The translations under genes and the position numbers were made by a program. Shown here one piece after another: positions 2,091 to 40,586 of a stretch of DNA of 64,000 nucleotides (position 1 is its first letter; each line of letters begins with the position of its first letter). The notes below the pieces were generated by a model that was given only the letters and a program-made list of their open reading frames with translations, ran no database searches and had not been told where the DNA came from. The stretch covers positions 6,512,501-6,576,500 of the forward strand of contig OZ019759.1 in assembly GCA_947034885.2 (NCBI GenBank), in the 5' to 3' direction. This DNA is from Thuidium tamariscinum. Taxonomy: Eukaryota; Streptophyta; Bryopsida; Hypnales; Thuidiaceae.

Positions 2091-3205
2091 ACACCCAAAT
2101 TGTCATAGAACATGATTGTTCTATGACATTGCAACCTCCACATATTTTTTTTGGCCCCTATTCACGTTGATTTTCAATTGTACATGGCATTTCGCAATGC
2201 ATGTGAAAAGAATGGCAGGGTGCCCTTTCTTGAGAATCCAAATAAAAAATAGACAAATTCAACTTGAAAGTTGAAATTTGTCATAAAATATGATTGTTTT
2301 ATGACATTGCAACTTACACATATTTTTTCTGGACCCTAGTCATGTTGATTTTTAATTGTACGTGGCATTTGACAATGGGTGCAAAAAACGGCAAGGTGCC
2401 CTTTTTTGAAAAAACAAATAAAAAATTGAAAATTTCAACTTGAAAGTTGAAATTTGTCATAGAAAATGATTTTTCTATAACATTGCAACTTACACATTTT
2501 TTTTGGACCCTAGTCTCGTTGATTTCCAATTCATAGCTTGCATTTGGCAATGGATGCAAAGAATGGCAGGCTGCCCTTTTTTGAGAAAACAAATAAAAAA
2601 TAGACAATTTCAACTTGAAAGTTGAAATTTGTCATAGAACATGATTGTTCTATAACATTGCAACTTACACATATTTTTTTTGTCTCCTAATCATGTTGAT
2701 TTCCAATCATATGCGGCATTTGGGAATGGGTGCAAAGAATGGCAGGCTGCCCTTTTTTGAGAAAACAAATAAAAAATAGACAATTTCAACTTTCAAGTTG
2801 AAATTTGTCATAGAACATGTTTGTTCTATAACATTGCAACTTACACATATTTTTTTTGTCTCCTAGTCATGTTGATTTCCAATCATATGTGGCATTTGGC
2901 AATGTGTGCAAAGAATGGCAGATTGCCCTTTTTTGAGAAAACAAATAAAAAATTGACAATTTCAACTTGAAAGTTGAAATTTGTCATAGAACATGATTGT
3001 TCTATAACATTTCAACTTATACATATTTTTTTTGTCCCTTATTCACGTTGATTTCCGATTCATAGCTTGCATTTGGCAATGGGTGCAAAGAATGGCAGGT
3101 TGCCCTTTTTTGAGAAAATAAATAAAAAATTGACAATTTCAGCTTGAAAGTTGAAATTTGTCATAGAACACGATTGTTCTATAACATTGCAACTTATACA
3201 TTTCC
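2090..3205. repeat. Tandem satellite, about 176-bp unit, about six copies
   Basis: The marker word TTGAAATTTG recurs at about 2271, 2448, 2622, 2798, 2974 and 3151, a spacing of 174-177 bp. Each unit has the same order: an inverted repeat around TTTCAACTTGAAAGTTGAAA, then a hairpin-forming stretch (CATAGAACATG...TGTTCTAT), then a T-rich tract, a GTTGATTTCCAAT block and a TGGCA..GCCCTTTTTTGAGAAAACAAAT block. Copies differ by scattered substitutions. A frame of 99 codons across 2314-2613 is just a translation of the repeat. A unit near 176 bp is in the size range of nucleosome-length plant satellites; that is a size comparison only, and six copies are far too few to argue for a centromere. Confidence 0.9.
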
Positions 3206-6840: not shown

Positions 6841-9800
6841 ATGGCTTTCGACGACAGTGATTCACAGGAAATGGACTTATCCTATGAATCCGTGGATGAT
6901 GCTGTACTCTCTTACTCAAGTAGAACTGTTGAGGAGAATGAGTCTCAGGAGTCCAGTGCTACATCCTCACCAGTCAAGAACGGTGATGTCGTGAAGTTGC
7001 TTTTGTTGGGATATGGTGAAGTTGGAGAAGGATGTATTGTGGATGCTCGTCCTCAAGGCGAGTGGCTTGGAGTTCAAATCCCCATGGAGCCTTGGGTATT
7101 TGTTCTGCTACGCCCTCGGACGATCAATCTAGAAGCTCAGGAACTTTGAGTTGACCCTTGCCAAAGGGGTTTTAGAACTTTAGCTGATGTTCTTGATCGG
7201 ACAGTGTTATGGAGAGTTGATGCTGTAATGAGGTCATCGAGAGATCCCCCGATGGATCATGATCACTACATTCGTCTAGACGACTGGATGGGTCTTGAGG
7301 TGCATCACAGAGATTCGGATGGTATGTTACTGGCGTCAGGTCGAATAATCTGCTTTAGGGCGGATGATCATTTCGAAGATGGAATAGTCGATGAGGGCTT
7401 TGTGGGTGTTACTGTACTGGACGTTTTCGTTGGTAACAAAGATACCATAATGAGTCATGCTCGGTGGCCCTTACTGCATTCTTGGTAAGATCGTTGATGG
7501 AGACTATTGACCACTTTTGGGCCCATCCCGAAGTTCAGGACCCCTTAGCTTATCTAGGTGGTCACAAGAAGTCCCCCTATTGCTATATTGTTCGTCGACC
7601 CAAGCTTGACCAACAGGATTCACAATATGTTCAAAAAACTGGGGAAGATGAAATACGGAAGGTTAGTTCACAAAAATGTTGCGCAAACCGATGTTTCCAA
7701 ATGTTTCATCATGAGAGTACGTTGAAGGTGAGGAAGACATTTTACCTAAAGTCATTTGAAGACCGTCGGGAATATGGGATCGTCGTGGGCGGGCAACTAC
7801 ATAGTGGGGACGAGAATCGGAAGCGTAAATATGTTACAGTGGAGGGAGCTGAAGTATGTACTACGGCGTGGTACATTATTCACGGAATTCCGAAGTCGAC
7901 CTACTACAGTTATATAGAGAAGTACAATGATGGTGTGGTCTCGAGAATGCACGGGAATAAAGGGATTAAGCGTCCCAGGATTCGAACCGTCCAAGTGACA
8001 GGAATGATAAAAGCAATCATAGATGAAACCGTTGATCAAATGCCACACCAAATGCGGGGCATTGGAAATGGAAGAATGGACACTTTGAAATTTTTGCCTG
8101 CTGGAAATAATTGGAAACGAGTTCAAGCTGATGCCAATGAGGTAGTTGAATCACTCGAAATCCGTCCGCTGAGTCTGTGAGTTTCATTATGCCATCGGGA
8201 GATCTCCGGATATATTATTACATCGGGAGAACTCCCGATAAAATTGTTTTGGAGGACAATCGTTCTTAGCCATTATCTTTTGTTGTTGCTTTTGATTTTG
8301 AAATGTGCTTTCATTCCATTGCAGTTAAATTCGGATTATGGTCTTCCTCAAGTGAGCCAGTCAACCATTAGTAGAATCAAAAAGAAGCACTTCAACAATG
8401 TCGCAGTTAAGCCTGTTGGCAGTTCGTTTGCGAAGTGTACTACTTGTGATCAATTATTGGCGTTCCTTTTGAAATCATCGAAAGGAAGTCCCGAGTTTGT
8501 GGAGTTCACGAAGCAGCGAACTGAGCATCTTAATCATCAAGCGTCTTGTCGTCGCTTGTATGGGTCTTGGCATGAAGAATCAAAACGGAACCCTCAGGAG
8601 ATGTTATGCGTTATTCATGATAAGATGGATACATCTAAAACGGCTCTTCCGAGGATGCGGGTGACAACAAAGGCCACTCAAGGTTTAGGTCAGCTTCTGT
8701 TGAGCATGACCGGTATGGTAGCTCATGGTCATGGTGATGGCACTTATACTCATTATACTCCGTCATGTTGGCCGGGGGACTCGAACTTTACGATCTCGTC
8801 CTTGGCCAGATTGTTTCGCCGATTGGAGGGTCCTTTAATTTGGGAGACAGGCAACCTCTTCCCTTATCCGTCGGCCAATTCAATGTTTGAGGCACTACTC
8901 AAAGGAAAATCTAGGTGTATGGACACCCTAAAATTGATAGATCCAGTAACTTGGCGTGGATCTATTCCCCTCCCTAAAAAATTGTATCTTCAGCTTGATA
9001 ACTCTGCGAAGGATAACAAGAACCAATATCTCATGGTGTTCTTATCTATGCTTACAGCAAGAGGAGTATTCAAGGAAATCCAAGCCGGTTTCCTTCTAGT
9101 TGGACACACTCACGAGGACATAGATGCTTATTTTAGCCATTTGTCTAAGGCTTTGAAGAGTAAGAATACGTTTGTTGTTGCTAACCTTATGAAAGCCTTC
9201 AAAGAATCTCAGGAATTATCATTCATGCCCGAGGTCATACAGGAGGTGGCAGATTTTAAATGCTTTATTAGAGGTTACTTATGCAGTGGCGCAGCTAGAA
9301 TTATCGGATTGGGAGAAATGCATCTTTTTAAATTCTATGTGGATGGTGATGGAATCCCCGTTATGAAGTATAAAAAATCAGCAGTGGATTCACAGTGGCT
9401 ACCGTTTGATAAACCTTCTCAGTGCTTGTGGAAGAAAGACCGGCATGGTCGACCAATGCTCCCTTGGGGTTGTCTAAAGCCGATGCCATTCAAGCCTATG
9501 TGGGGCAGCGAAGTTCCTAAGGAGATAGGAAATCGAGAGAAGGCTTTTGAAGTTGCACGAAAGGCTACACTGAACAAGGGTTTTATGCTAGTCGGACTCC
9601 AAAAGTACATTCACTACTGGCAAAATGGAAAGTCAAAATGTGAGGGATTTGCAACCGCATTTGGTCCATATGTGGATTACTGGAATCGTGTGGTACGTGA
9701 GCTGAACGAACCGGATTGCCTTCCAGCTCTAGTTGAAGGCTTTTGGCCAGAACATGATTGGAGGGTGTTGCAAGATGATGTATCTCGAGCAAGGTCGACC

Positions 9801-10253
9801 GTGAATCCCATGGATGTGATTCCAGAGGTAGATCAACCAGAACCTTATTGTGGCCCTGCAAATGAAGCTCCACAGGAAAGTTTCAATCCTTGGGTGGACA
9901 TACGTCCAGGCTCATGGGTTCTTCTTAGACCCGAAGACCCCTCCGTCTGTACTGTTTGGCAAGGAAGAGCGTTGTTTGACGTATGTAGAGTGTTCAAAGA
10001 TGAGAATAACGACAAGTTCTTGCTGCAGTACTGGAGACCAGATAATTCCAAAAGGACATTGGAATTGAGGTACCGGAATTGCTGGAGTGGTAAATGGGTT
10101 GTTGAAAATACAGCCCCCACTTGGATTGATGTAAATTGCGTAGTATATGCAAATTGGTCTAAGGTAGTAGACCCCAAATCTCGAACTATTCCTAAGAAGA
10201 GTAGGGAGGCTGCCTTAGCAAATCTGAATAGGGCAAATGAGGTGGATCCCTAA
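6841..10253 (+). CDS. DUF7869-like (putative RNase H-fold transposase) gene, three exons, one in-frame stop
   Basis: My model is exons 6841-7484, 7667-8141 and 8325-10253, about 1,015 codons with phases that agree. The second intron (8142-8324, GTAGTT..TTGCAG) is well supported. The first (donor GTAAGA at 7485, acceptor TTAG at 7666) is tentative. Exon 2 holds a Cys-rich start (QKCCANRC, near 7670). Exon 3 holds CTTC..H..C, then HDKMD, QLDNSAKDNKN and VGHTHEDID, the hallmarks I associate with DUF7869 proteins. The aspartates of these three motifs are plausible catalytic residues of an RNase H-like fold (inference). The last third has a GSWVLLRP..WQG region of unknown role. A TGA at 7147-7149 interrupts exon 1 in an otherwise continuous frame; CGA to TGA would explain it. 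Exon 3 is intact and ends at TAA, followed at once by another motif copy. Host domestication is possible but the flanking arrays argue for a transposon. Confidence 0.65.
8142..8324 (+). other. Intron carrying two copies of the palindromic motif
   Basis: A 183-bp interval with GT..AG borders that joins two open frames in phase (..ADANE then LNSDYG..). It contains CATCGGGAGATCTCCGGAT at 8193 and the variant ending ACTCCCGAT at 8221. The same motif lies in both flanks of the gene, so the motif is spread across the element and not confined to its ends. Confidence 0.6.
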
Positions 10254-11385: not shown

Positions 11386-12455
11386 ATTACTTCTGGACTT
11401 TCCATAGTCCGAAAGTAGTTAAATATGGCATTAGGGTAAACCAGATACACATGAATGATTAGTGCACTTGAGTAATAGGCGCTACAATAGAACTTCAATG
11501 TCTTAGAGATGAGCTCAACACACAAAATAATGCTCAAAAAACCAAAGTCAAGCCAAATTGTAATGAAAAATAGAAGGGTTGAGAGTACCAAAAAGCTTAT
11601 TGAAGTAGAAAGATGGTTGCAAATGCAAAGGCACTTGAGCTCTAAAAAGATGGCATGTATAATGGTATAATGGTTTGTAATTTGAATAATGGTTTACAAT
11701 GGTATGATACGGTTGTAAAAGGTTGTGAAGCAAGGGGAGGGGGAGGCCTTATATATGTTTCCAAGGCCTCTTCCCCCCTCAAATTATTCGCTAATCTACC
11801 TAGGAAAATCAAAATTAACCTCTAAAATTCTACACTATTGTTGTGACCACTCTAACTTTTGAAACAGGGTTGCTAGCAAGTGAGCGTAGGAGCAGGAGCT
11901 TGTGAGCCTATGAGCTTGTGAGCGGGAAATTTATTTTGCAAAAAATTAGAGTTGACCACCTATGATCGTGGATTTTAGGGTAACAAAAATAAGATTTCAG
12001 TACCTATGGACGTGGCCTTTAAACGGGTTTAGGGTGAAAAGAAGATATAATGTCCATTTCCAAGATGTGATTATGGGAATCACTTTTTTTTTTTACTTCA
12101 TTTTCTATTTGCATATACCTATGATCTAGGACATTGTATATATAAAGAGTAGGGATATAAAGTCTATTTCAGAGAATAGAAGCACTTAAATTTATATTTT
12201 GGATTACCTTTTATTTAGAATATAGATTTTTTTTTATGTGGAGATAAATTCAGCAATTAAGGAATGTGAAGGCAAAATGAACACAACAAAGAAGATGTCA
12301 TGAATTATACACAAATCCAATCAATAGAAGGCATAGGAAATACAATAATTTGTTGCAACTCCTTCATTAAATAAGTCAATCTAAGTGTTGTTGAGATAAG
12401 AATGATTTTGAGAAGCATAATGAGAAGAAAGAACTAGGAGAGAATATGGATGATT
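11386..12455. other. AT-rich spacer between the DUF7869-like element and the ParB-methyltransferase gene
   Basis: No coding frame is convincing. A small tandem occurs near 11875-11930 (GTGAGC, GAGCTTGTGAGC words). The rest is AT-rich with T runs near 12087 and 12226. Confidence 0.4.
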
Positions 12456-12456
12456 T

Positions 12457-12481
12457 TGTCGGATCCGACGGAATTGTAAGT
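12457..12481. repeat. Palindrome with core GTCGGATCCGAC, 3' flank of the ParB-methyltransferase gene
   Basis: Core GTCGGATCCGAC at 12459-12470, followed by GGAATTGTAAG. The same 23-base word recurs at 14307-14329 inside an intron of the neighbouring gene, and related GTCGGGTCCGAC palindromes lie upstream of the gene at 18975 and 19745. Confidence 0.8.
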
Positions 12482-12693
12482 GTTGCCATTTTGCTACAGA
12501 TTTGTTTTTTGTTTTTTGTGGATTTAGGGAGAAGTGACACAAGCCATTGCCTTAGATGTTTTGGAAACAAAAATTGTATAAACACATCCAAGAATTCAAG
12601 ACTTCCAGAAGTAGCCATAAAACACACAAATCCAATCCAAATAAAACTCAATACACAATAGTAAGATCCAAGAGACTAGTCAATCTCAAGAAT

Positions 12694-14061
12694 CTAGGTG
12701 GCTGTGGACTCAGTCACTGAATCTGACCCTGTAGATGAATCTGAGGACTCCTGTCCCTCAGATGCAGAAGCATCTATAAACTGTAAGACATGAAGGGCAT
12801 AAGTGTCTTTGCGTCGTTTTGATTTGGAACAACCAAAATTTGCAAAGGCACTTGCCATCTGCTCAGCATAGGGTGGAAGCTCGAAAGGCTTCTCCGGACT
12901 GACGATAAGCCTTTGATTTTGTTCCATGACCTCTCTCAAGATCAATCCACAACCTCTGTAGAAATTGAAGACATTATATCAGTCTTAGCAAAAATGATAT
13001 GAAGAAAAAGAATAAAGAATGAAAGAAGGGTCCACTTACTTACTGGATTTCCCCTTGCGAACAAACTTGCGAGGCACAATAGGCACGTCCTGTACATCCA
13101 TTGTCAAGTCCACTGTTGTCTCCGGGGTTGGAGCCACTGCCACTGATGCTGACGACTTCTTCATGGGCTTCAAAATGGCATTGAAAACGTCTTTGTCCTC
13201 CTCAAGAGCTAAAATGTTGCGTCCAGTTCTTCTACAAGCCGTAATGCAAGCACCTAGAGCATTCATGTAATGAAATTGTGTCAGAGAGATGACAAAATTG
13301 TAAGAATGACATAGAATTGAAAACTATTCAAATTCAAGACACACCTGTGGATGCCGTGCAGTCCACAATGACATCGCCTTCATTGCTTGTGGCTTCAAGG
13401 AGGAGAGTGAAGAACCTCGGGTCTTTTTCACGTGGGCCTCTCCATGGCTTCTTCCCATTCATGGAGATGTCGTCTGCATGCATATAATTCATGAGCATGT
13501 CATCATTCTCGACATCCACCCCAGCCTTCTTCATCATCTGAGTACGCTTGAAGGCAAACTTGGATTCGCCATTTGATTTGAGGTCCTTCACAAGGAGAGT
13601 GACTCCAAACTTCTGTGTCTGCAACATATACAACACAAGAACATTAGAGAGAAATGAATGATATTAAAAAAAATTAGGTGACAAAAGCTTAAGGGGTTGA
13701 ATTCAATATACCGTCTTTGTGGTGTCCGTTGGTGAGGTGAGATGCATGCGGTTCATGCCTAGCCAATCTTTCTTCTTTTTGAAATCGAATGCCTTGCAAA
13801 CTCCTGCTAGATCTTCCCTAGATGCAATGCTAAACGAGTGAAACACGATGATGCATCCATCATCATGAAGATGTTCCACTGCAAGGTGCATGCGGATTGC
13901 AAAGTGTTAGCATCTAAATCTGCATTCTAGTTGGGCACCTCATTTGACGTGAGAGAGATTCCTGGCATAGGCAAGTTCTCTGGGCAGTCAATAAAGATGA
14001 CATCAACTCCAGCTCTTGCATTTGCCACACCTTCAAACATGCGAGTTTTGCCCACCGCCAT
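12694..14061 (-). pseudogene. Exons 7-10: beta-class amino-methyltransferase domain
   Basis: Exon 7 (13712-14061) carries VDVIFIDCPENLP, at the place of catalytic motif IV (normally D/S-P-P-W/Y/F), then LHDDGCIIVFHSF, the usual following strand. Exons 8-9 carry KDPRFFTLLLEA then GDVIVD, and CTASTGACITACRRTGR split by an intron at 13254-13344, at the place of motif I (normally DPFxGSGT), then LALEEDKDVF, the acidic residue that holds the SAM ribose. This IV-before-I order defines the beta class. Both IV (DCPE) and I (DCTASTG) depart from consensus, so catalysis is doubtful even apart from the breaks: TAG at 13927-13929, a 1-base frameshift near 13,890 and a GCAA acceptor. The last exon is Ser-rich and ends with TAG at 12694-12696. 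Confidence 0.7.
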
Positions 14062-14300
14062 TTGCAAAAGCATAATTCAATAGAATTTCAATATATTAGT
14101 ATTGCATAGTTTTCTGTTTTTGAATGCAAATTCATAACATTTAGTATAACATTTACAATTATTTGCTCATTTTTTTAAGAAGCTCAATCAAAATAGAAAA
14201 TATATTTGGTGATATGACCTACTATTTCTAGAGAAAACAAAACCATAGGAACGTGGAAAATTTTTGAAAGGGAAAGAAAGAACAAAAAAATAGTATATTT

Positions 14301-14329
14301 AATTCCGTCGGATCCGACGGAATTGTAAG
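14301..14329. repeat. Perfect 24-bp palindrome in intron 6 of the ParB-methyltransferase gene
   Basis: Positions 14301-14324 read the same on both strands, centred on GGATCC with core GTCGGATCCGAC. The bases after it, GGAATTGTAAG, match the copy at 12459-12481 exactly. It lies in the intron between the coiled-coil exon and the first methyltransferase exon. Confidence 0.9.
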
Positions 14330-14514
14330 CTCTACCTTGTTGTCTTACTAATTTTTAAAATATAGCAATCTATAAGTAGAAACTGCATTTGTAGACTATA
14401 GAGAAATTTCACCTCAATGTATTTTTATAGCCACCTAGGAACATAGTAATGATAGCATCCATGTCATTGACAATAGTACCACAAAATTTAAGCAAAGACG
14501 TTTGAAGAGATTAC

Positions 14515-15247
14515 CTTAACCAAGTAGTTCAAGACATCATCATAGGCGCCCTGTCTTTTTTCCTCCATATCCACGGCAACGTCTTCAATGCAGACATTAA
14601 GAATTAAATCCTCAGTCTTTGGAACATCATCATCGCTGAGGACCATGGCTTGTGTGACTCGCGAAATGACATCTTCGGTGAGCTGTGAGATGGTCACTTT
14701 CCTTGGTATTCCGCCTTGTGTCTGCCCTGTTTGATCCACAGTGGAGGAAGTCAAGACCTGCCCTTGCTCTTCCACCTTCTTCTTGCCCTTGGTCTTGGTC
14801 TTTTCTTCCTTCTCCTTCTCGGCTTCTTTCTCCGCCTTCTCTGCCTCTTTCTCCGCCTTCTTTGCTGATTTCTCCGCCCGCTTTTTCTCCTTGGCCTCCA
14901 CAATGAGTTGATTCTTCACTTCTTTCTTTCGGTCCACTGCATCCCTCTTGTTGATGGCCTTCTTCCTGGCATCGCCGTCCAAGCCCATGAACTCGTCAAC
15001 AGCCTCCAAATCTATGATCCCCTTGCCCTCCAATGATGCCCTGAGCTCAACCTCCGAATTATGAGTGAAGTCAAGTGTACAGTCCAAGTACCAGCCCGCA
15101 CCAGAGAGATGAGCAGTAGTATAAGTGCGCAACTAATGTGGGCTAAACATGCATGAAGGTGAGTTGCGGTCGAGGAACCCTGAAAGGAATTGAGGAAGGT
15201 CCAATTTGGCAATGGCCCCCTTTGCTTCAAGTTCTAACTTGAAATAC
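14515..15247 (-). pseudogene. Exon 6: hydrophobic start, Lys/Glu coiled coil, acidic end
   Basis: Starts after acceptor ATTGCAG with YFKLELEAKG and ends LVK at donor GTAATC. The centre is a long charged helix of repeated AEKEAEK units (about 14,790-14,900), a likely single-helix or coiled-coil spacer. It is followed by a Ser/Thr/Gln-rich hinge and an acidic segment. A TAG at 15133-15135 (..FSPH then LRTYTT..) interrupts the exon in frame. A spacer like this would separate the DNA-binding half from the methyltransferase half. Confidence 0.65.
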
Positions 15248-15476
15248 CTGCAATTCAACACGAATGAGTTATACAAATCACTTTTCATCACGAAAATGAA
15301 AGAGAAAGAACATAATATTATGTAGAAGTTGTACTACATTCCATTGAATCTAGAAAAGTGGCCAATACAATACAAATTTCAGGTATATAAAAAATGACAA
15401 GATGCTATAGAATTTCTATAATTACAAACTACATGATGATGTTACAAAATTTCAAGTAGCAAAGAAAATGACATAC

Positions 15477-17020
15477 TGATAAAGGACTCTGCGCACCACA
15501 GCAATAGAGCCTTCGTAAGATGAAAAAGTTTGCCCCTTCTTGAAGTACTTTTGCCCCTTGAAGTAATTCATGAAGCCATGTTCCCAAATCTTCTGCCTCC
15601 ATCCTTCTATGTACTCCGGCAGTCGCTCTGGTGCTGGTTGGGTGTTGTAGTTGATGGAAAGGTTGTCTTCCTTTACAATTTTGTTGAAGAAGTCTACTAC
15701 AGCATCCTCTATCTGAAACATGTACCACACTCTCAGTATGAAGGAATTTCTACATTTACAACATTGAGGTAGAATTGATGCAAGCAATATTTAATTAATG
15801 TCCACTTCAATTATTACAAAAAATTTGAATGTCAAATAGGCCCCAAATAATTGATATGCACATTTATTTATTGAATGGCCTAATTACTCAAAATTGATAG
15901 GCTAATTCAAAATTCTTTGTTATACTTTGTAATTATCTTATGAAGTATTTTTAAGATTTTCAATTCAAAAAATTCCTTTCTTGTATTTAGGACTTCAATG
16001 CCTAAAAGTACCTACTATTTTATGGTACAATAAGATGTATTTCATGGTACAAACATCATGACCACAAAGTAACTATGATCTTATAAAAAAATACCCCTTT
16101 TCATAGTAAGTCAATAAACATATGATCCATTGGTACTAAATTGCATCAAATGGATCCTACTGATAAAATAATCCTTCAATGTACTTCAATGTACACAAAC
16201 ACATAATATTAAGTAATTCGACACTTACCCCGGCATACCAAGTGCATTTGACTAGAAATTGAGGGAGGAGATTCTCTGACACTGGTTTTGGGGGCAACTT
16301 CCGTGCTTCACGAGAAAGTGAAGAAGAGTTCCACCATTTCAAGATCTTTGTTTTGTGTGCGCCTGTCATTTTGCACGTAGCCACCAACTGGAGCTTTTCC
16401 AAGGTCATTTCGGGCACCTCAAAGTTGCCCCAATGCTTTTCCACCTACAAAAAGATGAGAAGCATTTTTGAAGAGTGTAAGATTGATTTTAGAGCCAAAA
16501 AAAAAGGCAAACACAAAGATGTCAAATTAATATACCTCTGTAAGAAAGTCCACTCCATTCACTGGGTTGGCTACTGCAAGCAATTTAAACATCTTCACCA
16601 TGGCAGTTTTCGTGCGTTCCCTTGCTCCAATCCTCATTGCTTCAGCTGCCTCAACTGGTTTACTTTGTGTCTCCAATGTAGCCTCCATGTACCTTCTCAC
16701 AGCAGTATCTGCAGCTTGTGATATTTCTTGCTACAAAAGCACCACGGATAATTAGAAAATGACACCCATCATTATAGATTTTGGAAGCCAAAAATACACT
16801 TTTTCATAATTATTTGAATAAGCTTACCCTGAAGATGAACGATGTGAAGACCTCGGGCTGAACGGAATACCATTTCTTTGTGACCTTATTCTCCAGACAC
16901 CTCTTCCTTTCAGCAGGCTTGAGCAAAGCCGCAAACTTATTGATTGGTAACATTCCATACTTCTGAACTTGGTACAAGGTGTGTACCAAGTTCGTCTTCA
17001 CATGAGAATCTTCAACTGAC
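15477..17020 (-). pseudogene. Exons 2-5: helical linker region of the ParB-methyltransferase gene
   Basis: Four exons (16828-17020, 16536-16730, 16229-16444, 15477-15712) with consensus donors (GTAAGC, GTATAT, GTAAGT, GTATGT) and acceptors (CTAG, TGTAG, TGTAG, TTCAG) keep one reading frame with no stop. The peptide is mostly helical in character, for example VQKYGMLPINKFAALL and MFKLLAVANPVNGVDF, and has Trp-rich spots (KILKWWNSSS, GWRQKIWEH). I recognise no domain. In ParB proteins a helical DNA-binding region follows the ParB/Srx fold, so this could be its counterpart, but no helix-turn-helix can be pinned down by eye. Confidence 0.6.
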
Positions 17021-17136
17021 CTAGAAGACAATAAAGGTTTGTATTAGAACAAGGATCTTGAAAATCTTGAAACAAGGACAGAATTGAAGGAGATAATGTC
17101 TTTGAAAATAAAAACAAGATAAAATAGAACCCTTAC

Positions 17137-17825
17137 TTATTAATGTCATGCATAACCTGCATGACAAGCTCATTCTTCCCTTTCGTATCCAAGATGATGG
17201 AGTCCACATTGCAGTGCCACTTGCCGTGCTTCGAAATGAAATTCATCCATACAACACGACGATGGTTCCCATCACAAATGAAAAACTTCAAGTTCTTCAA
17301 GAACTTGCGCTCTGGAATTTCCTCCAACTTCTGACAGAAGATTCGGTTCTTCTCCTGCTAGATAGGATCCCAGCTGTTCATCTCCTGCTCCGTGAATTCT
17401 TCAGTGTTTCCTTCCTCATTAGTAGCTAATACGTAGAATACTACAGCTCCATCCATGTACCCTCCACCAGCAAAGTCTTGCTCTAGCTTTGCTATGTAAG
17501 AAGCCAAAGATGGTCTCACCATTGGCATTGCAACAAGCCTACACAATGGAATGTGCAAACAAAATGAGTCTTCGGGCTTCATCCGCAGTTGTGCAAGTAT
17601 GTTCACTACATCTCCTTTCTGAATTTGGCGGAGTTCTGCTTCCGTCATCAACTTCTCCTCCTCATGATCATGAATGACTACTTCCATGTCTTCATCTCCT
17701 TCATCTCCTTCTCCCTGATCTTGTTCATCTACTCCCTCTTCAATCTGTGGCTGCCTTATGTTTCGAGAGTCTGGAGTTTCGAAGATAGTTGCTTCGATCG
17801 TGTTTTGGGCAGGTGAAATATCCAT
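17137..17825 (-). pseudogene. Exon 1 of the model: acidic N-terminus plus ParB-like domain
   Basis: The exon opens after an acceptor (TTCCTAG) with ATG at 17825. Residues 1-60 are strongly acidic (EGVDEQDQGEGDEGDED). From about residue 85 the pattern IPLCRLVAMPMVRPS, with FCLH just before it, resembles the start of ParB/Srx-fold domains (the 'pleIP' region), and near residue 175 the string FFICDGNHRRVVW matches the ParB GxxR nucleotide-site signature. The exon ends ..MHDINK at a GTAAGG donor. An in-frame TAG at 17358-17360 lies between these two halves; CAG to TAG is the simplest origin. ParB domains fused to methyltransferases are familiar from phages and bacterial plasmids; a spliced eukaryotic gene with this fusion is unusual. 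Confidence 0.7.
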
Positions 17826-18044
17826 CTAGGAATACAATATCAATTACAATAAGCGACAAGTTTATAGAGAATAAAAGCACCAAGAATTGCAATAAAATGG
17901 ATAATACGGTCAAAATATAAACCTTTACTTCAAGAAGAAAATGGTACTTGCAAATGAGGCGTCCAGTACAACTACCAAAAAAGAACCCCTTAGTGAGTAG
18001 AAATCCTGATATCATATATGATGGTTTTGAGATTAGAACTCTAT

Positions 18045-18684
18045 CTAATCTAAAATTTGAATGTCTCCATCCTCATCAGACTCTGACGAAAGGATGATGA
18101 TTTCGTTAGATTGAAATAAGTCCATATTCACAATGCTCTCCCTAGTGTACAACTCTAAGAATTCAACACTGCTAGAGTTTGACAGCTCCATGTCTGTGGG
18201 GTACTCCATCTCTGAACTAAAAGATGAAAACCATGGGCCATCTCTCCTAATACCACTGAGTACACTATGCTCAAATGCGTCAACGGCATGCTCTGCAACA
18301 TCAAGGACGTCATCAAAACTCACCAAATTGGGGTCTGGATCACTCTGGTCCGTGGAAAAAGAGACACCAACTTCTGCCTTCTTTGAGGGTCCACCAAGTT
18401 CCATTGCATGGCCACTCTGCTCTGTAGGATTTTGGGGCCCTGAAGATGACACCTTCTGACATTTGCCCCTTCCTTTGCCAACCTGAACAATGAAGAAGAA
18501 AACTCTACATTCAATGGCAAAGTCAAGTTTCCAATTGCATCACCAAAAGAAATACAATTAAAGATAATAAAACAATGGGGAAAATAAGACATTATTACAA
18601 AAAATTTCAAGGGTCATGGTTTGCATACCTGTTGATTCGATTGTTCACTACCTTCACCAACACTAGTAGCTTCAGCAGTAGCCT
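18045..18684 (-). pseudogene. Two upstream exons coding an acidic Ser-rich peptide
   Basis: Exon 18630-18684 (acceptor TGTTCAG, donor GTATGC) joins in frame to an exon starting at 18482 (acceptor GTTCAG), giving ..SNQQVGKGRGKCQKVSSSGPQ and then about 135 codons rich in Ser, Asp and Glu ending GDIQILD and TAG at 18045-18047. No family is recognised. They could be the 5' part of the ParB-methyltransferase gene, whose next exon begins after an acceptor at 17826, or the end of a separate small gene. I see no good GT donor before the TAG, which keeps the question open. Confidence 0.4.
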
Positions 18685-18970
18685 GAACAAAACATATAAG
18701 GTAAGTACCACCTCTATGAAATTTTCAATGGAATAAATGATTCAATCATTTGGACTAAACCCATTAGAATAAAAAATATACAATTAGTGACAAACATAAA
18801 TGGTGTAAAACGTGCAACCACATGAGGTCTTCAAAGAAAAAAGAACTTTTCAAAAAACCAATCATAAAGTGCCAACAAAGTCAAACAGTGCTTAGTAGTT
18901 GATTCATAAGAAATAAGCAGGATTCAAAAGAAGGACAACGTTTGAGAGTAGTACAAGCTGAGAGAGAAAA

Positions 18971-19012
18971 TTAAGTCGGGTCCGACGGGCTTTTATGAAG
19001 AAGCTCGTGGTA
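18971..19012. repeat. Half copy of the GTCGGGTCCGAC palindromic repeat
   Basis: Core GTCGGGTCCGAC at 18975-18986, then GGGCTTTTATGAAG and AGCTCGTGGTACC, words that also form one arm of the longer palindromes at 19259 and 19705. The left arm is missing or diverged. Confidence 0.7.
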
Positions 19013-19258
19013 CCCAAATAATACGAACAATTTAATGAATCATTACCAATCCTGGCATTATGCAACACAAAATCAACCCAAGACATCAGCATTTCATAAA
19101 AAATCAAAACTTTGGGTACTCTTAGCTGAAGGCAACACTTCTGTTCCACCTGGAGTGTTCTTCGAAGTCAAATCTCTGCCAAGAATAAGTTGTAATTACA
19201 TTAAAAAACAACCAGAAGTACTTCTGGAATTGGATCTATGGTACGGAAAAGTGAAAGA

Positions 19259-19344
19259 GTTCTGGGGGTACCACGAGCCATTCGACAAATTCAAGTCGGG
19301 TCCAACTTGATTTTGTGGGGTGCCTTGTGGTACCCCACGAACTC
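19259..19344. repeat. Imperfect 86-bp inverted repeat of the GTCGGGTCC family
   Basis: Left arm GGGGGTACCACGAGCC, then AAATTCAAGTCGGG; right arm TCCAACTTGATTTTGTGG and GGTACCCCACGAAC. The arms are mirror images with several mismatches. It belongs to the same family as the better preserved palindrome 450 bp further on. Confidence 0.8.
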
Positions 19345-19704
19345 CTTCCCTGCAATGAATCAAACACGCAAAGTGGAAAAAGAGCAGGCAGCTCGCGCAA
19401 GCACCCGGGAGTTCTCTGTCTTCATGTCGCACATGATAATATCAACGGCCTCCGAGATCGATCGTACTACGGTGATTTCAAGTCCGGTAATCCAGATCTT
19501 CATGATAACTCTGGAGTCCAACGCCTCCTCTCTTGGATTCCCCGCGGACAACGAATCGAAGCTTACAAAAACTTTGCAACTCAATTAATACCAAAAACAC
19601 AGACATTCTTCATGAAACCTTACTACAACGAGTCCTGAGAAAAGCAACGCTGACAGATGCAGAGAACGTTGGAATTGACGTATTGTATGTAAATTGAAAA
19701 TTTC

Positions 19705-19796
19705 GGGATTTTTGAGGGTACCACGAGCCCCACCGAAAAATCAAGTCGGGTCCGACTTGATTTTTCGGCGGGGCTCGTGGTACCTTCAAAAATCCC
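19705..19796. repeat. Near-perfect 92-bp palindrome
   Basis: The arms (19705-19750 and 19751-19796) match at 43 of 46 positions. The left arm runs GGGATTTTTGAGGGTACC, ACGAGCCCCACCGAAAAA, TCAAGTCGGG; the right arm is its reverse complement with three differences. No loop is present, so the DNA could extrude a full cruciform. It is the best preserved of three copies upstream of the ParB-methyltransferase gene. Confidence 0.92.
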
Positions 19797-19984
19797 AATT
19801 TTTTTTTTCATGAGATGTGGAAATCAAAATCACCCGAAGTCAGGGAGTTCGTTGCGGATTCAGAATCTCCAACCTTGAAGTGTATGTGGCTCACCATTTG
19901 GCATTGACTGCGGGAATAGATATGTCTATCCAACTTCTCTTCCCCGACTGTGCGTGACTCCCAACAAGAAAGTGGAACGCTGAA

Positions 19985-29580: not shown

Positions 29581-32500
29581 TCAACATCGTCCGTTTCCTC
29601 TTTGTTGCCTTCGTCTTGCCCGCCTGCCCACAACTTGGGGCCTCTCTCCGTTTACCAGCGCATTCAAGCGCGCTACCTCTGCTTCAGGAACAGCGTCGCC
29701 AACAATTCTTATTCTTGGTCTGAACTCTGCTCCATTCAAGTTTTCAGGCAAGTGCAATCCTGCATGGGTTCCAGAAATGCCGAGAATTTGTTCGTCCTCG
29801 ATATCAACCACCCTTCTAGAGCGAGGTTCTTTTTGTAATACAATCTTCCATCCTCCATGACGCCAATCATCTATGAAGAAAACCTGGTCAAAAAGATCGA
29901 TTCAGTAGATGTCCTTCCCCATCACTCTTTCATGCTACTACTATGTCAGGTTCAATCGATCACTGCTGTGACTCTTTCATTCAAATAAGTTTACTTCAAA
30001 CTTGTTCAAAAAGCTCTGTTTCATTTTCTAAAAAACCCTATACTAATTTATTTGTTTTCGGTAAAACACATTCCAAAAGTATCATTTCTGTAGAAGACAT
30101 GTTAAGTACACGCGATTCAATCATTCGCTAACAGAGGTACTAAGATGCCCTTCTCTATGTACTGCTTCGTCATTCCTTACATACTTTTATTAAATTTCTT
30201 TCTCAAATCGAATATTTCAATCCAAAAAACATACCTGACGTACCGTCGCGGGAAGGACATACGGCTCCTGAGCACTCGGAACTCTGTCAAAGAACCGGAC
30301 TGTAGTGAATCCATACTCGTCTATCTTCGTTGATGAGCGCTCTGTTCCGTTATTACGAATCCACGAACCCTGCATAACAATCCTCCTTCTTGCACAATAA
30401 CGAACTACTATAATGTCTTTCAGAACTCCAACCATGCTGACACCCGCACACCGTCCCTCATCTGCACTAAACACACATGCTATCCCGTAATCATGTGTTG
30501 CATATCCCAATTCATTACCTTCTTCATGAACTCGATAGTGATTTCCATAAGCCCACATTTGCTTATAAGACTGAGCTTCCAAACTTGGCATTTCTGACAA
30601 TCTACGCAACTCAACATCCACGTTCGCTATACCATGCGTGCGAATTAGTGATGTTGTATAATCACTTAGCCAGTCCACAAAATCAGGCAAATCATCCCTT
30701 ATGTGGGCAAGGTAATCGACTTGCTGCCTCCTGGACATTCCTCTCGCGGCGGCTTCTCTCCTGTAAGATTCCCGCTCCATCTGCAGTGATTCCAAATTTT
30801 CATTGTATAACCTGCATAGCCCGGAAGTTATCAACTCTTAAAAACGTAGTAGCAATGCACATATGTCATGTCAATCTTCGACTGTCCTCCGCTTCGAACG
30901 ACACTATCTTCATTGCGTACAACAAATTAAAATAATTTCTCTGGAATTTAAAATCATTGAGAGGAATAGCAAAGTGCAGTAACATATTTGTGAAATGCTT
31001 ATGTCGATCCTCCCTTTTTCCTATTCCTCAAAACATAGCACTGCAAATGACGAATATGGTTCGGTCAAATACCTCCAAGGATCAGCTGTACAAGTTGAAT
31101 TTCGAATGATCCACGAATGAATAGCCCGACGCTCTTCACTTGTCAACAACTTGTCCTCTGCACTTCCCATAAGGACTTCTCCACAATTTGTCAGTTCTTC
31201 ATCATCATCCCATACTCTCCTTTTAGTATGCATGTATAGCTTGAAATACTCTGTATAGAAGCCCAATGCCTCTTCGTACATGTAGGCATTCGCTATACAA
31301 GCCTCGGGCCTTGACCTGCTTCGAATGAACTTTTAAAAAAAACCCAGGTGTCTTTCGACAGGATAACACCAAGCGTTGGCAATTGGACCACATTGTCTTA
31401 TTTGTTTCGGCAGGTGAATTGGCAAATGCCACATTATATCGAATGCGGATGGAGGAAACCAAACCTCCAACAAACACATTGTTTCAGCTGCATAAACCTC
31501 CAACCTTTCTAACTCCTCAACGCTCAAAACCTTCTTACACAACATGGTAAATAAACGACCAAGTCTTATAATAGCAGTCCTCGGTCCCGGATTCATGAGG
31601 TGTCTCAAGCAAACGGGTAAAATGAACTGTAGAAGGATATGATAGTCGTGAGACTTCATATTCCCCAGTTTATTTTTGAAAATATGTTTCTTCAGGTCTC
31701 CGCAGTATCCTGTCGGAACGGTGATTGCAGCTATTTGCTCCAAAAATATTCTCTGTTCTTCTTTTGTTAACACATATGGTGCTGGTGGCTTCACAAATTG
31801 ACCTTCTTCGGCGTCCCTTCTAACCCAAAGGTGAGGTTTAATTTGTTCTTCTTCCATGTCTCTTCGACTTGCTGCTGTATCTGTGATGCCCATAAGTAGC
31901 TTCACCAAGCTCTCACATATATTTTTTTCAATGTGCATCACGTCCAACAAATTACGTCGTGGCAATTTCTGCATTAAAAAGGAAACAACTCAGTTCTTCT
32001 TTTCACTTTCACGAAGCCTGCTCTAACACAGCTTTAATTATTACTAAAAGTTTCATAGACAATTTTATATTACAAACGCAAAAAATACAGAAGCCAAATA
32101 ACTTCAGTACTGTATTTACCAAACTATGATTATGGAGATTGAAACTCACCCGCCAGTATGCAAGCTAAAACAACCCCGACACGCGTTTCACGCTATGCCG
32201 TTTCCCTAGAAAGTCTGGGTGCCGGTCTGTCCCCCCCTCACGAACGAACTGCTCACTTCGTCTTCCATTACGGATAATATCATTGCCAGACATGGGCTCC
32301 ATTTCTGTCTCCAATTCAGCCCCATAATCAAATGCAGCAAAGTCCTTTCTAAAGTAATGATCGGCTTGCAGGAAACGTCTATGACAATTACAATACACCA
32401 TTTTCCTCAAGACTTTGGAATAACGTGCTACTGTGTTCGGTCCACAAACCGTACAGGCTTTAAATCCCTTCGTCATCATGCCTGAAACCAATCCATAACC

Positions 32501-34184
32501 AGGGAAATTGTGCAGTGTTCACATTAGACAACCACGAAGACCAAAATACGCATCGGCACCCTCTGCTCGTGCATCCATGGTTCGAACCCCCTTGGGCTTC
32601 CACAGCTCTTGCAGCTCATCAATAGCTGGCTGTATAAAAACGTCAAAGGCATGTCCGGTGATAAGTACTTTCGAGGAAATTAGTAAAGTGAGCATCACAA
32701 AATACTTTTTGGTCACTAACCAGGGAGGAAGGTTGTAGTTGAAAAACATCACCGGCCAGATGCTCGATGTGCTCCTCTTTTCAGACCATAGATTGAAGCC
32801 ATCAGTCGCCATCTCCAAATGTAGGTGTCTAGGGTCAGACCGAATCTATTCTCCATTGACTCCGGTTCTAACTCCGTGTCTACGCATTTCCATTGAGGTG
32901 AATCAGCTGTGTGTCGCATTTTCCCATCTGTACTGCGATTGTGAAGGTGCCAAGTATTTAGTTCCGACAATTTTTTCGAAGCAAACATTCTTTGCAACCT
33001 AGGTATCAATGGGAAATGCCTCAGTACCAAAGAAGGTACTCTAGAACGACCACATTGTTTGTAACGACTACTACCACATTGGGGGCAGCTGTCCTCCGCC
33101 TCCATCAATCTTTGGAAGAGAACACAGCCTTTTGGACACGCGTGAATTATGTTATACGACAACCCGAAATTCTTCAACACTTTGCTGGCCTCATACTCCG
33201 ACTTAGGTAAGACGTTCTGAACGGGTAAAATACTCTTACACAAGAGCATTAGAAGCTCATTGACAAACACATTCGAAACATGATGTGTGCGGCAGCAATT
33301 CAAAATCAATAGGGTGGCACTCAACATGGACAGTGATGCACCCTCAAACAAAGGCAGAGTGGCTGCCATTTCGATTGCCGAATTCTCACCAACTTTGCCA
33401 TTCGGAATCTAGCCAAACAATTCCTCCATGTCGTCTTCTTCATTGTCCGAGTTTGAACCGTCGTCGCTACTCGACGATGAGGGCTCTTGAAATAGCGGGT
33501 ATACATTTTCGGGTGCATCCTGAAATTCTTCACCCTCATCATTTACCACTGGTGCTTCTTCGGACCCTGCTGAAACTTCAAATGCTGCTGCTGAATCGGA
33601 AGTGCTTCCTCCATTGGAATTCTGTCCAAGTCCTCCATTGCTCAACGACTCATTCTGTGTAACCTCCACTGTTGCACGATGAATTACGTCTGCTCTTACA
33701 AAAGCATGTCTTACCATGCGGGCAACCCCCACACCTCCATCCAGTGGAATCTCTTGAATGGGCTCCTCCAGTCCAAGAAATGCCCTTGCATTCTCACCAA
33801 TACTAGCCTCCCATTCCTCATCCGAAGAGTCCTCTTCTTCTCCCTGTTATAGAAAGAAAATGATCATTACAAAGAATACAGTGAACCTTCAGTATTGCAA
33901 TAACATGTTTTGCATGTCTACCATTTCATAAAGCTCTCCTAAAAAATACTTACAGGTGCACATCCCCGAAGAGCACCATGTTGTCCCCTGAGCTTCAAAT
34001 GACTCACAACAGTCCTTCTACTGCATGGTTTCCTTCGACCGCCACAAATGTTCCACGGGCATCTATATGTGCTAATGCCTTCCCTCGCTGCTCTGTCTTC
34101 GTTCCTCCTGTACAATTTCAAGTCACTGGCTTTGATGCGCTCTGGATGAGTCAAAGGTAATCTTCGACTACCCTCCATTTCCAT
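29581..34184 (-). pseudogene. CACTA transposase gene: TNP2 (Transposase_21), DUF4218, DUF4216
   Basis: Minus-strand exons by my reading: 33956-34184, about 32153-33843, about 31021-31969, 30238-30811 and 29581-29883. Exon 1 has RCPWNICGGRR, the zinc-finger-like transposase-associated domain. Exon 2 is TNP2: IHACPKGCVLF, CPQCGSSRYK, RHFPLIPRLQRM, ADSPQWKCVD, ATDGFNLWSE, NYNLPPWL, CHRRFLQADH. Exon 3 has NLLDVMHIEKNICESLV then the DUF4218 block (ILLQFILPVCLRHLM, VWFPPSAFDIMWHLP). Exons 4-5 are DUF4216 (VSMVGVLKDIIVVRY, EYGFTTVRFFDR, VFFIDDWRHGGWKIVL). TNP2 cuts and joins the element ends. The frame is broken by TAG (33409-33411), TGA (about 32516, at a usual Trp), TAG (about 32190), TAA (about 31345) and a frameshift near 32,840. 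Confidence 0.9.
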
Positions 34185-35285: not shown

Positions 35286-36984
35286 TAATTTAAATTTGTT
35301 TTACTAACTCCACCAATCTAGAAATTGAAGTAAACAGTCTTGGGTTTAGGGTATATGTTGCCTCATATTTTTTTTTCACCACCTGCAACAGAAGTCATGA
35401 TATTGTGACTTGTGTCAAAATACTTTAATGCATAGCTCTTTCTCACTGTATCAAAGTAGTTTAAACGTGACATTGTAATACAATATAGGTCAACCACCAT
35501 TCACACAATTTTTCGACTCCTTCGTTCAAAAATTCGGCATTCTTCATACACATAGACTCTGACGTCGAGCACACTGTATCATATTTTTTTATTTTTTTTT
35601 CAATTACAAACGGGCAAAGGCATTGCACTTCAAAGAAGCAAAAAGAACTCCTACGCGACAAAGCTGGACACATGAACAAATAGCTAACGTATGAAAACAA
35701 GACATACTCTTGTATCGAATTCCATACCACAGAAGTTTTCTATTCTTCGAATATTAGGTTACCCTGTTTCAGGCGGACGCTTCAAATTGTTCTGACAACC
35801 TAGGATTCCCCCAGTGTCAACCACAAAATAAAATCACCTTGACTGGTCCATGTGCTTCAATACTATTATATTGATTCTCACGAGGTTTCAAGATATCCAG
35901 TTCAGTCGGATACAACGACTACGTAAATTGTATACAGCAAACGAAGTCGCCACAGTCTTCACATTCCACTTCAGTTCATTCAGGGAAGAAATTACAGTGC
36001 ATATAAACCCCCATCATTCTCAAAATACATTTTCCAATGCTGTCCACAGGCCGCTATGACTGCTACACTTCCGGGTACAATTAGAGACTTACCGAAGCGC
36101 TTTAGGGTGACCACTACGTCGGCTTAGTTGTCATGCATGAACTTTCGGGCTTCTGAAAACATGGATTCAAACTTCATGACCTGCATACAGATGCTCTGAA
36201 TGAGAAAATCAAAATTCGCTGCGCGTGAACAGAATTTCACATAAAGGAAACAGTACAATCACATGTGAAGATGAAGTCTTACAGAGTAGTTGTGCTTCCT
36301 CACTCCGGCTAATGAAAATTGGACATTCAGTTCAATTGCGCTTGTACTAAAATTGTTTTCTAAAGTAATGGTAACGAAACAGACCATTAGTTGAAAATGA
36401 AGCTAACATAAAGAAAACTACACTGATGCGCGCGCGTTACTAATACACCGAGTTCAACAATTACACATTACATCAATACATGATACATGGTTCTTTACTT
36501 TGAACTCCGGCAATCTTGTGATCAAATACAGTCCTTCGACTATAAAGCACGGCGTACTCTAATTGCAACTCTCAAGTGAAACGACCGACGAAAAAATGTC
36601 GACTGCCAACTTCCTGTCCTATGGAACTCATGCGACTCCGTGCCTTGCTTCTTCTACTCACATTTCCCAGTGCTATTCTGAAAAAAACATTCTCATTCCG
36701 ACTAACGTTATGCTTCTACTTAGAAAAGGACAGGGTTGTCATAACGGACGAGTCAAGGTCACCGGACATCCCGGACGGATGGGCGAGGTGGACCGGACGA
36801 ACGGACGGTCCGGACGTACCGGACGACTCCATTTTTCAAAGTAGTGGGATTTTTTTGGGTTGACACGTCAACTTAGAAAGCGAGATCCAGGGCGCGGACA
36901 CGTACATGAAGGGCGCGGACTTCACCATAACATTGTCAAGGCGTGGACGCGTATAGGAAGGGCGTGGACTTCACCGTCAACTTC

Positions 36985-38150
36985 AGGGCGGGGACGTGAG
37001 ACAGGGCGGGGACGTGAAAAATGACAAGGCGCGGACGTCAACTTCTTTCTGCTTTTGCAATTGGAGTTTTGAGAATTTGGAGGCATGCAATATACCATTG
37101 GAAAGGTATTCAAAATACCTTTCCAATGGTATATTACACGCCTCTAAATTCTCAAAACTCCAATCGCAAATTGGAAAACAAATCTACTACTAAAATCCAC
37201 TATGCAGAGAGTCCATGAGCAGGTGCGGACGCAAGGCTGGGCGGGGACGTTAGGGCGGGGACGCAAGTCAGGGCGGGGACGCAAGTCTGGGCGGGGACGC
37301 TAGGGCGCACACGTCAACTTTCTTCTGCTTTTGCGATTGGAGTTTTGGGAATCTGGGGGCGTGTAATATACCATTGGAAAGATATTTTGAATACCTTTCC
37401 AATGGTATATTACACGCCCCCAGATTCTCAAAACTCCAATCGCAAATTGAAAAACAAATCTGCTGCCAACATCCACAATGCAGTAAATCCGAGGCAGGGC
37501 GTGGACGCGAGGCAGGGCGCGGACGTCAGGGCGCGGATGTGAGGCAGGGCGGGGACTTCAGGGCACGGACGCGAGGCAGGGCGGGACCACAAACTGTGTG
37601 GGTGTTTTCAAATGGCCTTAGCCTTGGGATTCCTCTTCTTCACTAAACCCGCCTCCCTAAAAGGCCACATTAATTACTGTCAACTCATTTTTGCACGGTT
37701 GACTAGATCTCCAAGTACGTGGAGGTCAAATGGACACATTAAGAACTCCACCTACCAACTACAACTTGCACAAGGGTGGAGGCCTTTGAGAGCTAAGTGC
37801 ATTTCTCTCTCTTGTGGCCTAACTCCTCAAATCTTCTTTCTCACAAGACCTTGGATTCTTCATTCTTGAATTGAATCTTTGGGAACTTGGTGGATAAAAT
37901 AGTTCTTTTGTTTGTATTTGTTTTCCTCAATTTGATTCTTGAAGGCTTTGGATGGGGTTATTAGAGGGTGATGTAGCCCTTGCTATTTATTTATACCAAA
38001 GCTTGCATATGTAGGTTATTTTTTGACTTTCTCTTATAGTAGTTTTACTTAATTATTTATTGTGTAAATTCTAAAGAAGGGATTTAGTGAAGGGCGTGTC
38101 TTTTTCCATTGCTTTTTTTAAGTAATTTGAATTAATGGGTTTTTTTAAAG
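36985..38150. repeat. Left inverted arm of the hAT element, with two nested hairpins
   Basis: Pairs with 39350-40407. Outer part: GC-rich spacers built from GGGCGGGGACG and GGCGCGGACG words, with two internal palindromes of about 115 bp, near 37056-37171 and 37334-37446. Each runs GATTGGAGTTTTGAGAAT, then ATATACCATTGGAAAGGTATT and back. Inner part (37600-38150): plain sequence ending GGGCGTGTCTTTTTCCATTG, matched closely by the right arm. Confidence 0.9.
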
Positions 38151-40407: not shown

Positions 40408-40586
40408 TGTTGAGTTGCGTCCGCGCCCGTGGTGTCTAGGTGGCATGAACTTAAATCCACGTGGATTTTTTATTACCTTTTAAAAAAGTCAGCTATGTAT
40501 TGACCCTATCGGACGGGCGAGAGCTCTATCGGACGAATGGACGGGTGAATCGGACATCCGCTCGGTATGACAACCCTGGAAAAGGA

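Follow-up and report, generated by a model that had tools for sequence, protein, structure and literature searches.

The spliced gene at positions 12694-17825 is accessory cargo of a high-copy DNA transposon of ~16 kb and not a host gene. Its protein would be a self-recognising, VANC-like factor for a palindrome of its own element, a reading to which we give, from the sequences, a probability of about one half. What is new here is this palindrome, GTCGGATCCGAC, recurring in the non-coding DNA of the elements. The gene copy in the window, i.e. the whole stretch of 64,000 nucleotides that was analysed, is a pseudogene.

The gene lies on the minus strand and runs exactly from start codon to stop codon in ten exons, which confirms the span given in the preliminary description. 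The spliced structure proposed there is supported, the CDGNHRRVVW motif of the first exon is found at 17276-17247, and the coiled-coil linker corresponds to a K/E-rich, coiled-coil-like stretch in exon 6. That all GT..AG borders agree holds for 17 of the 18 borders in the window copy; the acceptor of intron 6 is AA, where other copies have AG. What had been taken for a plant gene is instead a gene of a DNA transposon, and its sequence is present many times in the genome. The features of the gene are:

12694..17825, minus strand: accessory gene (ParB-motif/methyltransferase-like), ten exons, decayed copy
17137..17825, minus strand: exon 1, acidic N-terminus and ParB-like motif; in-frame TAG at 17358-17360
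17247..17276, minus strand: CDGNHRRVVW, ParB/Srx-like motif, aligned to the ParB box without significance
16828..17020, minus strand: exon 2
16536..16730, minus strand: exon 3
16229..16444, minus strand: exon 4
15477..15712, minus strand: exon 5
14515..15247, minus strand: exon 6, K/E-rich linker; in-frame TAG at 15133-15135
13712..14061, minus strand: exon 7, motif IV position (DCPEN); acceptor AA not AG, in-frame TAG at 13927-13929, 1-nt deletion
13345..13612, minus strand: exon 8, reaches methyltransferase motif I (VDCTASTG)
13040..13253, minus strand: exon 9, remainder of the methyltransferase core
12694..12955, minus strand: exon 10 and stop codon
18045..18539, minus strand: upstream acidic open frame, open in copy L012 too

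The acidic open frame is possibly an upstream exon or a small gene.

The window copy is dead, because it carries three in-frame TAG codons, the deletion in exon 7 (350 nt vs 351 elsewhere) and the lost intron 6 acceptor. Two of the TAG codons (17360-17358 and 13929-13927) stand where other copies have W, and the third (15135-15133) where they have Q. Recoding of TAG to glutamine was rejected due to the W at two of the three positions. All 18 borders are canonical in six of ten aligned copies, while one or two are lost in the other four (the window copy, L022, L013/14 and L011/12). The changes private to the window copy comprise 31 C>T or G>A and 8 of the reverse type, an excess that we count as a sign of silencing pressure.

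Exon 1 matches 150 scored places in the genome. In L054, a copy of another subfamily, the gene is open across all ten exons, with 18 of 18 canonical borders, and encodes 1109 aa. The family protein, ~1,110 aa when intact, shows in its sequence the mark of purifying selection: dN/dS is 0.119 for L023 vs L054 and 0.151 for L023 vs L013/14 (0.096 in the ParB-like part and 0.093 in the methyltransferase part).

The element that carries the gene begins in the window, where its features are:

11855..11864: left target-site duplication ACTTTTGAAA; these 10 bases recur outside the window, just after the element's right end (C11:6625106)
11865..11886, plus strand: left terminal inverted repeat, start of the element; CAGGGTTGCTAGCAGGCGAGCG in most copies
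11865..19926, plus strand: portion of the DNA transposon (its left part) inside the window; other copies match as far as 19926

A 10-bp target-site duplication was found in all 12 elements compared at both ends, exact in 11 and with a mismatch in one. The terminal inverted repeats are imperfect, and the right end of the element was located; together with the target-site duplications, these repeats are the marks of a cut-and-paste DNA transposon. Elements with both ends tested measure about 16-20 kb, each with its own duplication. The ends of the window element lie 100.7 kb apart with an identical duplication at both, i.e. nested sequence has split the element. Outside the window, at C11:6620663-6622576, lies a transposase-like match of the right orientation, and the transposase-like gene is divergently placed, on the strand opposite to the accessory gene.

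SWIM zinc fingers are common in plant Mutator-like elements (MULEs), and a SWIM match (PF04434, E 0.15, under its cut-off) lies in a frame downstream of the main transposase frame. In the transposase frames scanned there was no match to Pfam MULE, and the main frame was without any Pfam match; PF10551 matches 33 places in the genome, none of them on this transposase among the copies listed, and a PDB search with the transposase gave no significant match. The 10-bp duplication fits the MULE range, 8-11 bp according to an excerpt of PMC6446971.

Two other homes for the gene were considered. A DUF7869 element at 7437-10253 was rejected because the homology between copies starts at 11865. A giant element of 168-208 kb, suggested by facing repeat ends on C6 and C1, was rejected because the tested C6 end is part of a separate element of 19.7 kb, complete with a right end and a target-site duplication of its own, and because, in the pairs compared, the distance from transposase match to end is about 11-13 kb.

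These data also bear on the nature of the locus. An ancient capture from a bacterium or phage as a host plant gene, with introns added later, would account for the introns with GT..AG borders. However, the copy number is high, the gene sits in elements with 10-bp target-site duplications, and the window copy is broken by three stop codons and a frameshift and has lost one acceptor; as a general account we consider it very improbable, and for the window locus it is refuted. Even less probable is an endogenous large DNA virus in place of a transposon, to which the prokaryote-like gene content and the repeat ends at first sight 168-208 kb apart would point. The four places with PolB matches all lie away from the listed elements, and the elements tested at both ends are only about 16-20 kb, each with its own duplication; there was no NCLDV capsid match either, in a search without a match anywhere, which proves little.

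The 12-bp palindrome GTCGGATCCGAC recurs in introns and intergenic DNA of the elements. The sites in the window are:

14305..14320: palindrome CCGTCGGATCCGACGG, intron 6
12456..12471: palindrome TTGTCGGATCCGACGG, beyond the 3' end of the gene
18975..18986: degenerate core GTCGGGTCCGAC, upstream of the gene
19745..19756: degenerate core GTCGGGTCCGAC, centre of a hairpin of ~72 bp

In the tested loci the core GTCGGATCCGAC occurs only in non-coding parts: neither the 11 coding sequences nor the single transposase frame examined contain it. Since the element copies share ancestry, the following counts are not independent of one another: in 150 kb of element loci GTCGGATCCGAC tops all 4,096 twelve-base palindromes (21 occurrences, the next 7) and the other 119 half-site permutations sum to 0; genome-wide, at up to 1 mismatch, it is found at 566 places vs 0 for the reversed palindrome; and of the first 50 listed sites, 35 have a listed element landmark no more than 20 kb away, whereas such surroundings make up 1.5% of the sequence. 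By eye comparison of both lists, nine of the other 15 listed sites are within 8 kb of an exon 1 match. The intron 6 site is 95% identical between two subfamilies, while the remaining windows of this intron average 73% and 3.6% of them are equally conserved.

The transposase or a host factor could bind the palindrome instead of the accessory protein. The palindrome would then be a recognition or enhancer site unrelated to the accessory protein, as would suit the palindromes in the intergenic stretch that separates the two genes and downstream of the main transposase frame, the latter probably in an intron of the transposase gene. Against this, the terminal repeats of the elements do not contain the core, and several subfamilies share sites located some 1-2.4 kb upstream of the accessory gene. 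We find this explanation somewhat unlikely.

For the accessory protein as the VANC-like factor, its two ends are of interest. The N-terminal DGNHR is invariant across 7 copies of several subfamilies, and the GxRR/DGxHR box, which we take to be the mark of the ParB/Srx family, is present. Pfam and PDB searches matched no ParB family and no ParB structure, and hhalign against five plasmid ParB proteins gave a probability of 0.3%, though aligned exactly on the motif (0.4% and 0.6% for unrelated-pair controls). Of the ParB-like domain described earlier the motif stands; the putative homology rests on this one motif and was significant in no test run.

The C-terminus has, on solid evidence from profile comparison, a beta-class amino-methyltransferase fold. 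An hhalign comparison with bacterial beta-class methyltransferases covers columns 18-237 at 96.4% and E 1.4e-9 and places motif IV ahead of motif I, in agreement with the order noted in the preliminary description. DpnA in the PDB is matched at E 4.5e-4 with one sequence and E 0.013 with a three-sequence profile, and the closest solved relatives are the adenine methyltransferases DpnA, MboIIA and CcrM. The suggested comparison with N6_N4_Mtase in Pfam gives E 7e-4, under the cut-off, when the domain is searched by itself; with the full-length protein the Pfam match weakens to E 0.28. The catalytic motif is not the (D/N/S)PP(Y/F) of the class: the DPPY position reads DC[PQ][ED]N (DCPEN, DCPDN or DCQEN) in all seven representatives readable there. 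In the same seven, motif I is D-C-[TS]-[AT]-S-T-G vs D-P-F-x-G-S-G.

The claim that the protein could write 6mA or 4mC keeps its fold and is weakened by this motif IV. As an active DNA writer, the protein would put these marks into GATC-centred palindromes of its own element. This would fit the aligned motifs IV and I, the adenine methyltransferases as closest relatives, the GGATCC/GATC at the palindrome centre, and the marking role suggested for algal transposon proteins of the same build in an excerpt of PMC12477816. On the other side stand DCPE, DCPD or DCQE for DPPY in 7 of 7, the altered motif I, and further motif I changes in the decayed copies L021 and L015/16, and we hold such a writer to be doubtful. 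As DPPY is consistently altered, binding is the likelier activity than base methylation, although methylation at the GATC centre is possible too. The motifs suggest a methyltransferase that in the moss lineage turned reader and no longer writes.

ParB is a CTP-dependent clamp on palindromic parS. By analogy the accessory protein would, as a dimer, recognise the GTCGGATCCGAC palindrome within its own element and load on it as ParB loads on parS. The loaded protein would mark or shield the regulatory DNA of the element, like VANC for VANDAL transposons, and the gene product may be a self-marking or anti-silencing device. More tentatively, and with less than even odds, this could be a ParB-parS-like transposon system, in which the retired-methyltransferase fusion would spread from palindromes in introns and the promoter region of its own and sister copies and block cytosine-methylation silencing, convergent with VANC. 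In its sequence traces, anti-silencing would look no different from autoregulation or copy clustering.

The escape of transposons from silencing is incompletely understood, and to our knowledge few element-encoded counter-measures are known. With this family come an intact protein, several diverged subfamilies and, as candidate target, one specific 12-bp sequence; the prediction, binding that base methylation may or may not accompany, is clear and can be tested in vitro.

Relatives were confirmed neither in viral contigs nor, in a single scan with the alignment of the ParB-like part, among bacterial and archaeal genomes, so the donor lineage was not found. Matches to plasmid methyltransferases were weak, with E 0.1 at best; none of the six inspected is annotated as a ParB fusion. 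Fold and motif order are those of DpnA, MboIIA, CcrM and the Lactococcus phage AM1/LW81 enzymes; unlike these, the moss protein has DC[PQ][ED]N for DPPY, 23% identity to the phage enzymes, and a methyltransferase part embedded in a spliced protein of 1,110 aa. Mobile elements with DNA-modification genes are described in excerpts of PMC5890265 (captured enzymes in DNMT retrotransposons and Dam-like enzymes of DIRS elements) and PMC12730594 (TET/JBP DNA transposons of fungi), with different enzyme classes and element classes.

No plant gene of this build had been known to the preliminary description, and the same build is in print for algae: according to an excerpt of PMC12477816, ParB-methyltransferase accessory proteins occur in algal DNA transposons, e.g. 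Sola1-1_Ec32 of Ectocarpus, and the algal protein of 1104 aa is proposed to bind and mark its own transposon. The moss gene is therefore a variant in a streptophyte, and would widen the algal class to this host and to another kind of transposon. As far as that excerpt goes, both share a large DNA transposon, an accessory gene opposite in strand to the transposase, a similar length (1104 aa vs 1109 aa in L054) and, compared by description, N4/N6 methyltransferase and ParB-like parts, the latter by motif only in the moss. The moss system differs in the streptophyte host, the transposase-like main frame without Pfam match and later frame with a possible SWIM finger, the 10-bp target-site duplication, the candidate target palindrome and, possibly, the altered catalytic motif.

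The VANC proteins of VANDAL (Mutator-like) transposons are, according to an excerpt of PMC5735166, likewise accessory proteins with a short motif repeated in introns and upstream regions of their own element. The VANC21 motifs are nine bases long, in the same orientation and in dense arrays, whereas the site here is palindromic and often lies within a long hairpin.

The accessory gene at 12694-17825, earlier described as a plant gene, belongs to a transposon: it has many genome copies, and lies inside elements with 10-bp target-site duplications. A search of the 363-Mb genome with exon 1 gave 299 candidates, and all of the 40 scored match. With the exon-1 protein of another subfamily there were 629 candidates, of which 150 were scored and 150 match at 57-100% identity; counting row by row, the matched part is stop-free in 104 of these. 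Homology between the window and the first-compared copies starts sharply at 11865, CAGGGTTGCTAGCA, and outside this boundary the flanks are unrelated. The right end was located using two 99.6% identical copies. The 10-bp duplication is present in all twelve elements with both ends in the comparison (11 exact, one with one mismatch); a thirteenth element, on contig C9, was excluded from the count as only one end was fetched. The window lies on contig C11, and in the window's element ACTTTTGAAA is found before the left end and again after the right end at C11:6625106, 100,742 bases from the element start. This match indicates that a single insertion was split by sequence nested in it; window bases after 19926 are within the interruption.

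The element consists of the left end, the accessory gene on the minus strand, an intergenic region and a plus-strand transposase-like gene, whose main open frame measures 744 aa in the copy L025. Element lengths, obtained from the end positions (n=12), are about 15.6-17.3 kb, with one of 19.7 kb that contains a 4-kb insertion. At L025 5298-9289, an element copy otherwise 99.6% identical has an insertion of 4 kb. The main transposase frame matches no Pfam family, the transposase-like gene contains a hint of a SWIM finger (E 0.15), and none of the 33 genome matches to the MULE family is on a listed copy of the transposase. At C6 24.96-25.65 Mb, element pairs are found in repeated units spaced at ~190-230 kb; the gap is nearly constant at 23.7 kb in three of four, and these units are probably recent segmental duplications.

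Neighbouring features in the window:
2100-3201: about six 176-bp units repeated in tandem, 89% matches
7437-10253, plus strand: open frames, of which the second has Pfam DUF7869 (E 1.4e-42); probably the gene of a different element, adjoining but outside this transposon
30217-33846, minus strand: CACTA/EnSpm-type remains in pieces, matching DUF4218, DUF4216 and, weakly, Transposase_21
36984-40409: large nested inverted repeats, foldback-like (581 bp at 98%, 280 bp at 98%, 1.25-kb centre)

The preliminary description had the ten exons right, and the gene lies exactly at its coordinates, on the minus strand from 17825 to 12694. It also described GT..AG borders and agreeing phases throughout, and this holds in part: 17 of the 18 intron borders of the window copy are GT or AG, but the intron-6 acceptor is AA in place of AG, and the frame is stopped by a one-base deletion in exon 7 and three in-frame TAG codons.

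In-frame TAG codons of the window copy (minus strand):
17358-17360: W in other copies
15133-15135: Q in other copies
13927-13929: W in other copies

Because other copies read W, Q and W at these codons, they represent decay, and recoding of TAG is ruled out. In a comparison with four copies of its own subfamily, 47 changes are private to the window copy; 31 of them are C>T or G>A and 8 are T>C or A>G, as expected for a cytosine-methylated, silenced repeat.

In the copy L023 the 1,110 codons include a single premature stop, and in L054, from another subfamily, all ten exons are open with GT..AG at every intron. The dN/dS between these two is 0.119, with dS close to saturation (about 2). For L023 and the copy L013/14 the overall value is 0.151, and the ParB-like and methyltransferase parts have 0.096 and 0.093, respectively. 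For the latter pair, dS falls along the gene (exons 1-5 vs 6-10) from about 1.3 in the ParB-like part to 0.08 at the C-terminus; the copies are thus probably mosaics, pointing to recombination between subfamilies. The protein is kept under selection by the element family.

The C-terminal domain is, judged by its sequence, a beta-order amino-methyltransferase, as originally claimed (profile to profile E 1.4e-9, 96.4%). DpnA, an adenine methyltransferase in the PDB, matches with E 4.5e-4 using one sequence and 0.013 using a three-sequence profile. Pfam N6_N4_Mtase gives E 7e-4 for the domain alone and 0.28 for the whole protein, neither reaching the curated cut-off, and phage enzymes show 23% identity over 90% (E 6e-3). 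In the profile-to-profile alignment the DPPY motif aligns with DCPE, and the position reads DCPEN, DCPDN or DCQEN in all seven subfamily representatives readable at that exon (L023, L013/14, L054, L059, L060, L061, L062); L058 has no match there, and L060 and L061 have stops near the altered position. The altered motif is read here as loss or alteration of base methylation.

Of the ParB-like domain originally proposed, the motif stands: DGNHR is invariant in seven of seven copies from several subfamilies, and when profiles are compared, it falls exactly on the ParB box of five plasmid ParB domains. However, that comparison has a probability of 0.3%, no better than unrelated pairs (0.4%, 0.6%), and this part has no ParB match and no other significant match in Pfam, PHROGs, NCBIfam, phage and PDB searches. 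Because of these results, "ParB-like" is used as a motif-based label, helped by the ParB-methyltransferase accessory proteins of algal DNA transposons (excerpt of PMC12477816).

With at most one mismatch, the palindrome CCGTCGGATCCGACGG is found at 566 genome places and its reversed form, a palindrome with the same composition, nowhere. None of the other 4,096 twelve-base palindromes is as frequent in 150 kb of element loci as the 12-bp core, GTCGGATCCGAC, with 21 sites (next 7). These sites are not independent, because the loci contain copies related to each other and also some host flank. All 119 other permutations of the half-site together give zero. Neither 11 coding sequences nor the one transposase frame tested contains the core, nor does the part of the window outside the element. 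Sites are found in intron 6, 3' of the accessory gene, about 1-2.4 kb upstream of it, and directly after the main transposase frame, there probably in an intron. Five further gene regions have little upstream DNA; one contains the core at one mismatch and four lack it. For 35 of the first 50 listed places, a listed element landmark is at most 20 kb away, against 1.5% of that sequence. Nine of the remaining 15 are less than 8 kb from exon-1 matches (five at C1:11.93 Mb, four on C2). Six have no assigned element: one is at C1:54.02 Mb, and five are at C1:12.00 Mb, where the C1:11.93 Mb cluster appears to be duplicated. Between two subfamilies the intron-6 site is 95% identical, against a mean of 73% in other windows, 3.6% of which reach this level.

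Many upstream sites are at the centre of ~72-bp hairpins, whose arms vary in sequence between sites while the symmetry is retained. In 14 of 35 distinct flank pairs, 16 or more of 24 positions are symmetric, vs 0.022% of random places.

Hairpins of ~72 bp in other copies, each with the 12-bp core and with similar ends (GGGTA..., ...TACCC):
L018: 2198, 2568, 3190
L019: 6619
L054: 6420, 6750, 7087
L057: 1164

Most likely, the accessory protein recognises the palindrome of its own element and, once bound, would regulate or shield that element. The outcome could be anti-silencing, autoregulation or copy clustering, which sequence alone does not separate. Searches of one open-access library turned up neither an earlier description of the palindrome nor one of a land-plant family.

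Sola elements have a 4-bp target-site duplication, in contrast to the 10 bp here. In duplication length the family resembles Mutator-like elements, for which an excerpt of PMC6446971 gives 8-11 bp. The nearest functional parallel is VANC, the anti-silencing proteins of VANDAL transposons, whose motif recurs in the introns and the upstream regions of the transposon that encodes them (PMC5735166, in part), as does the palindrome here. The family is of the same kind as the algal transposons. Its host is a streptophyte, in line with a LEAFY-family match found at one place, LEAFY being a streptophyte marker; its duplication length is different, and it has both an altered catalytic motif and a candidate site for the protein to target.
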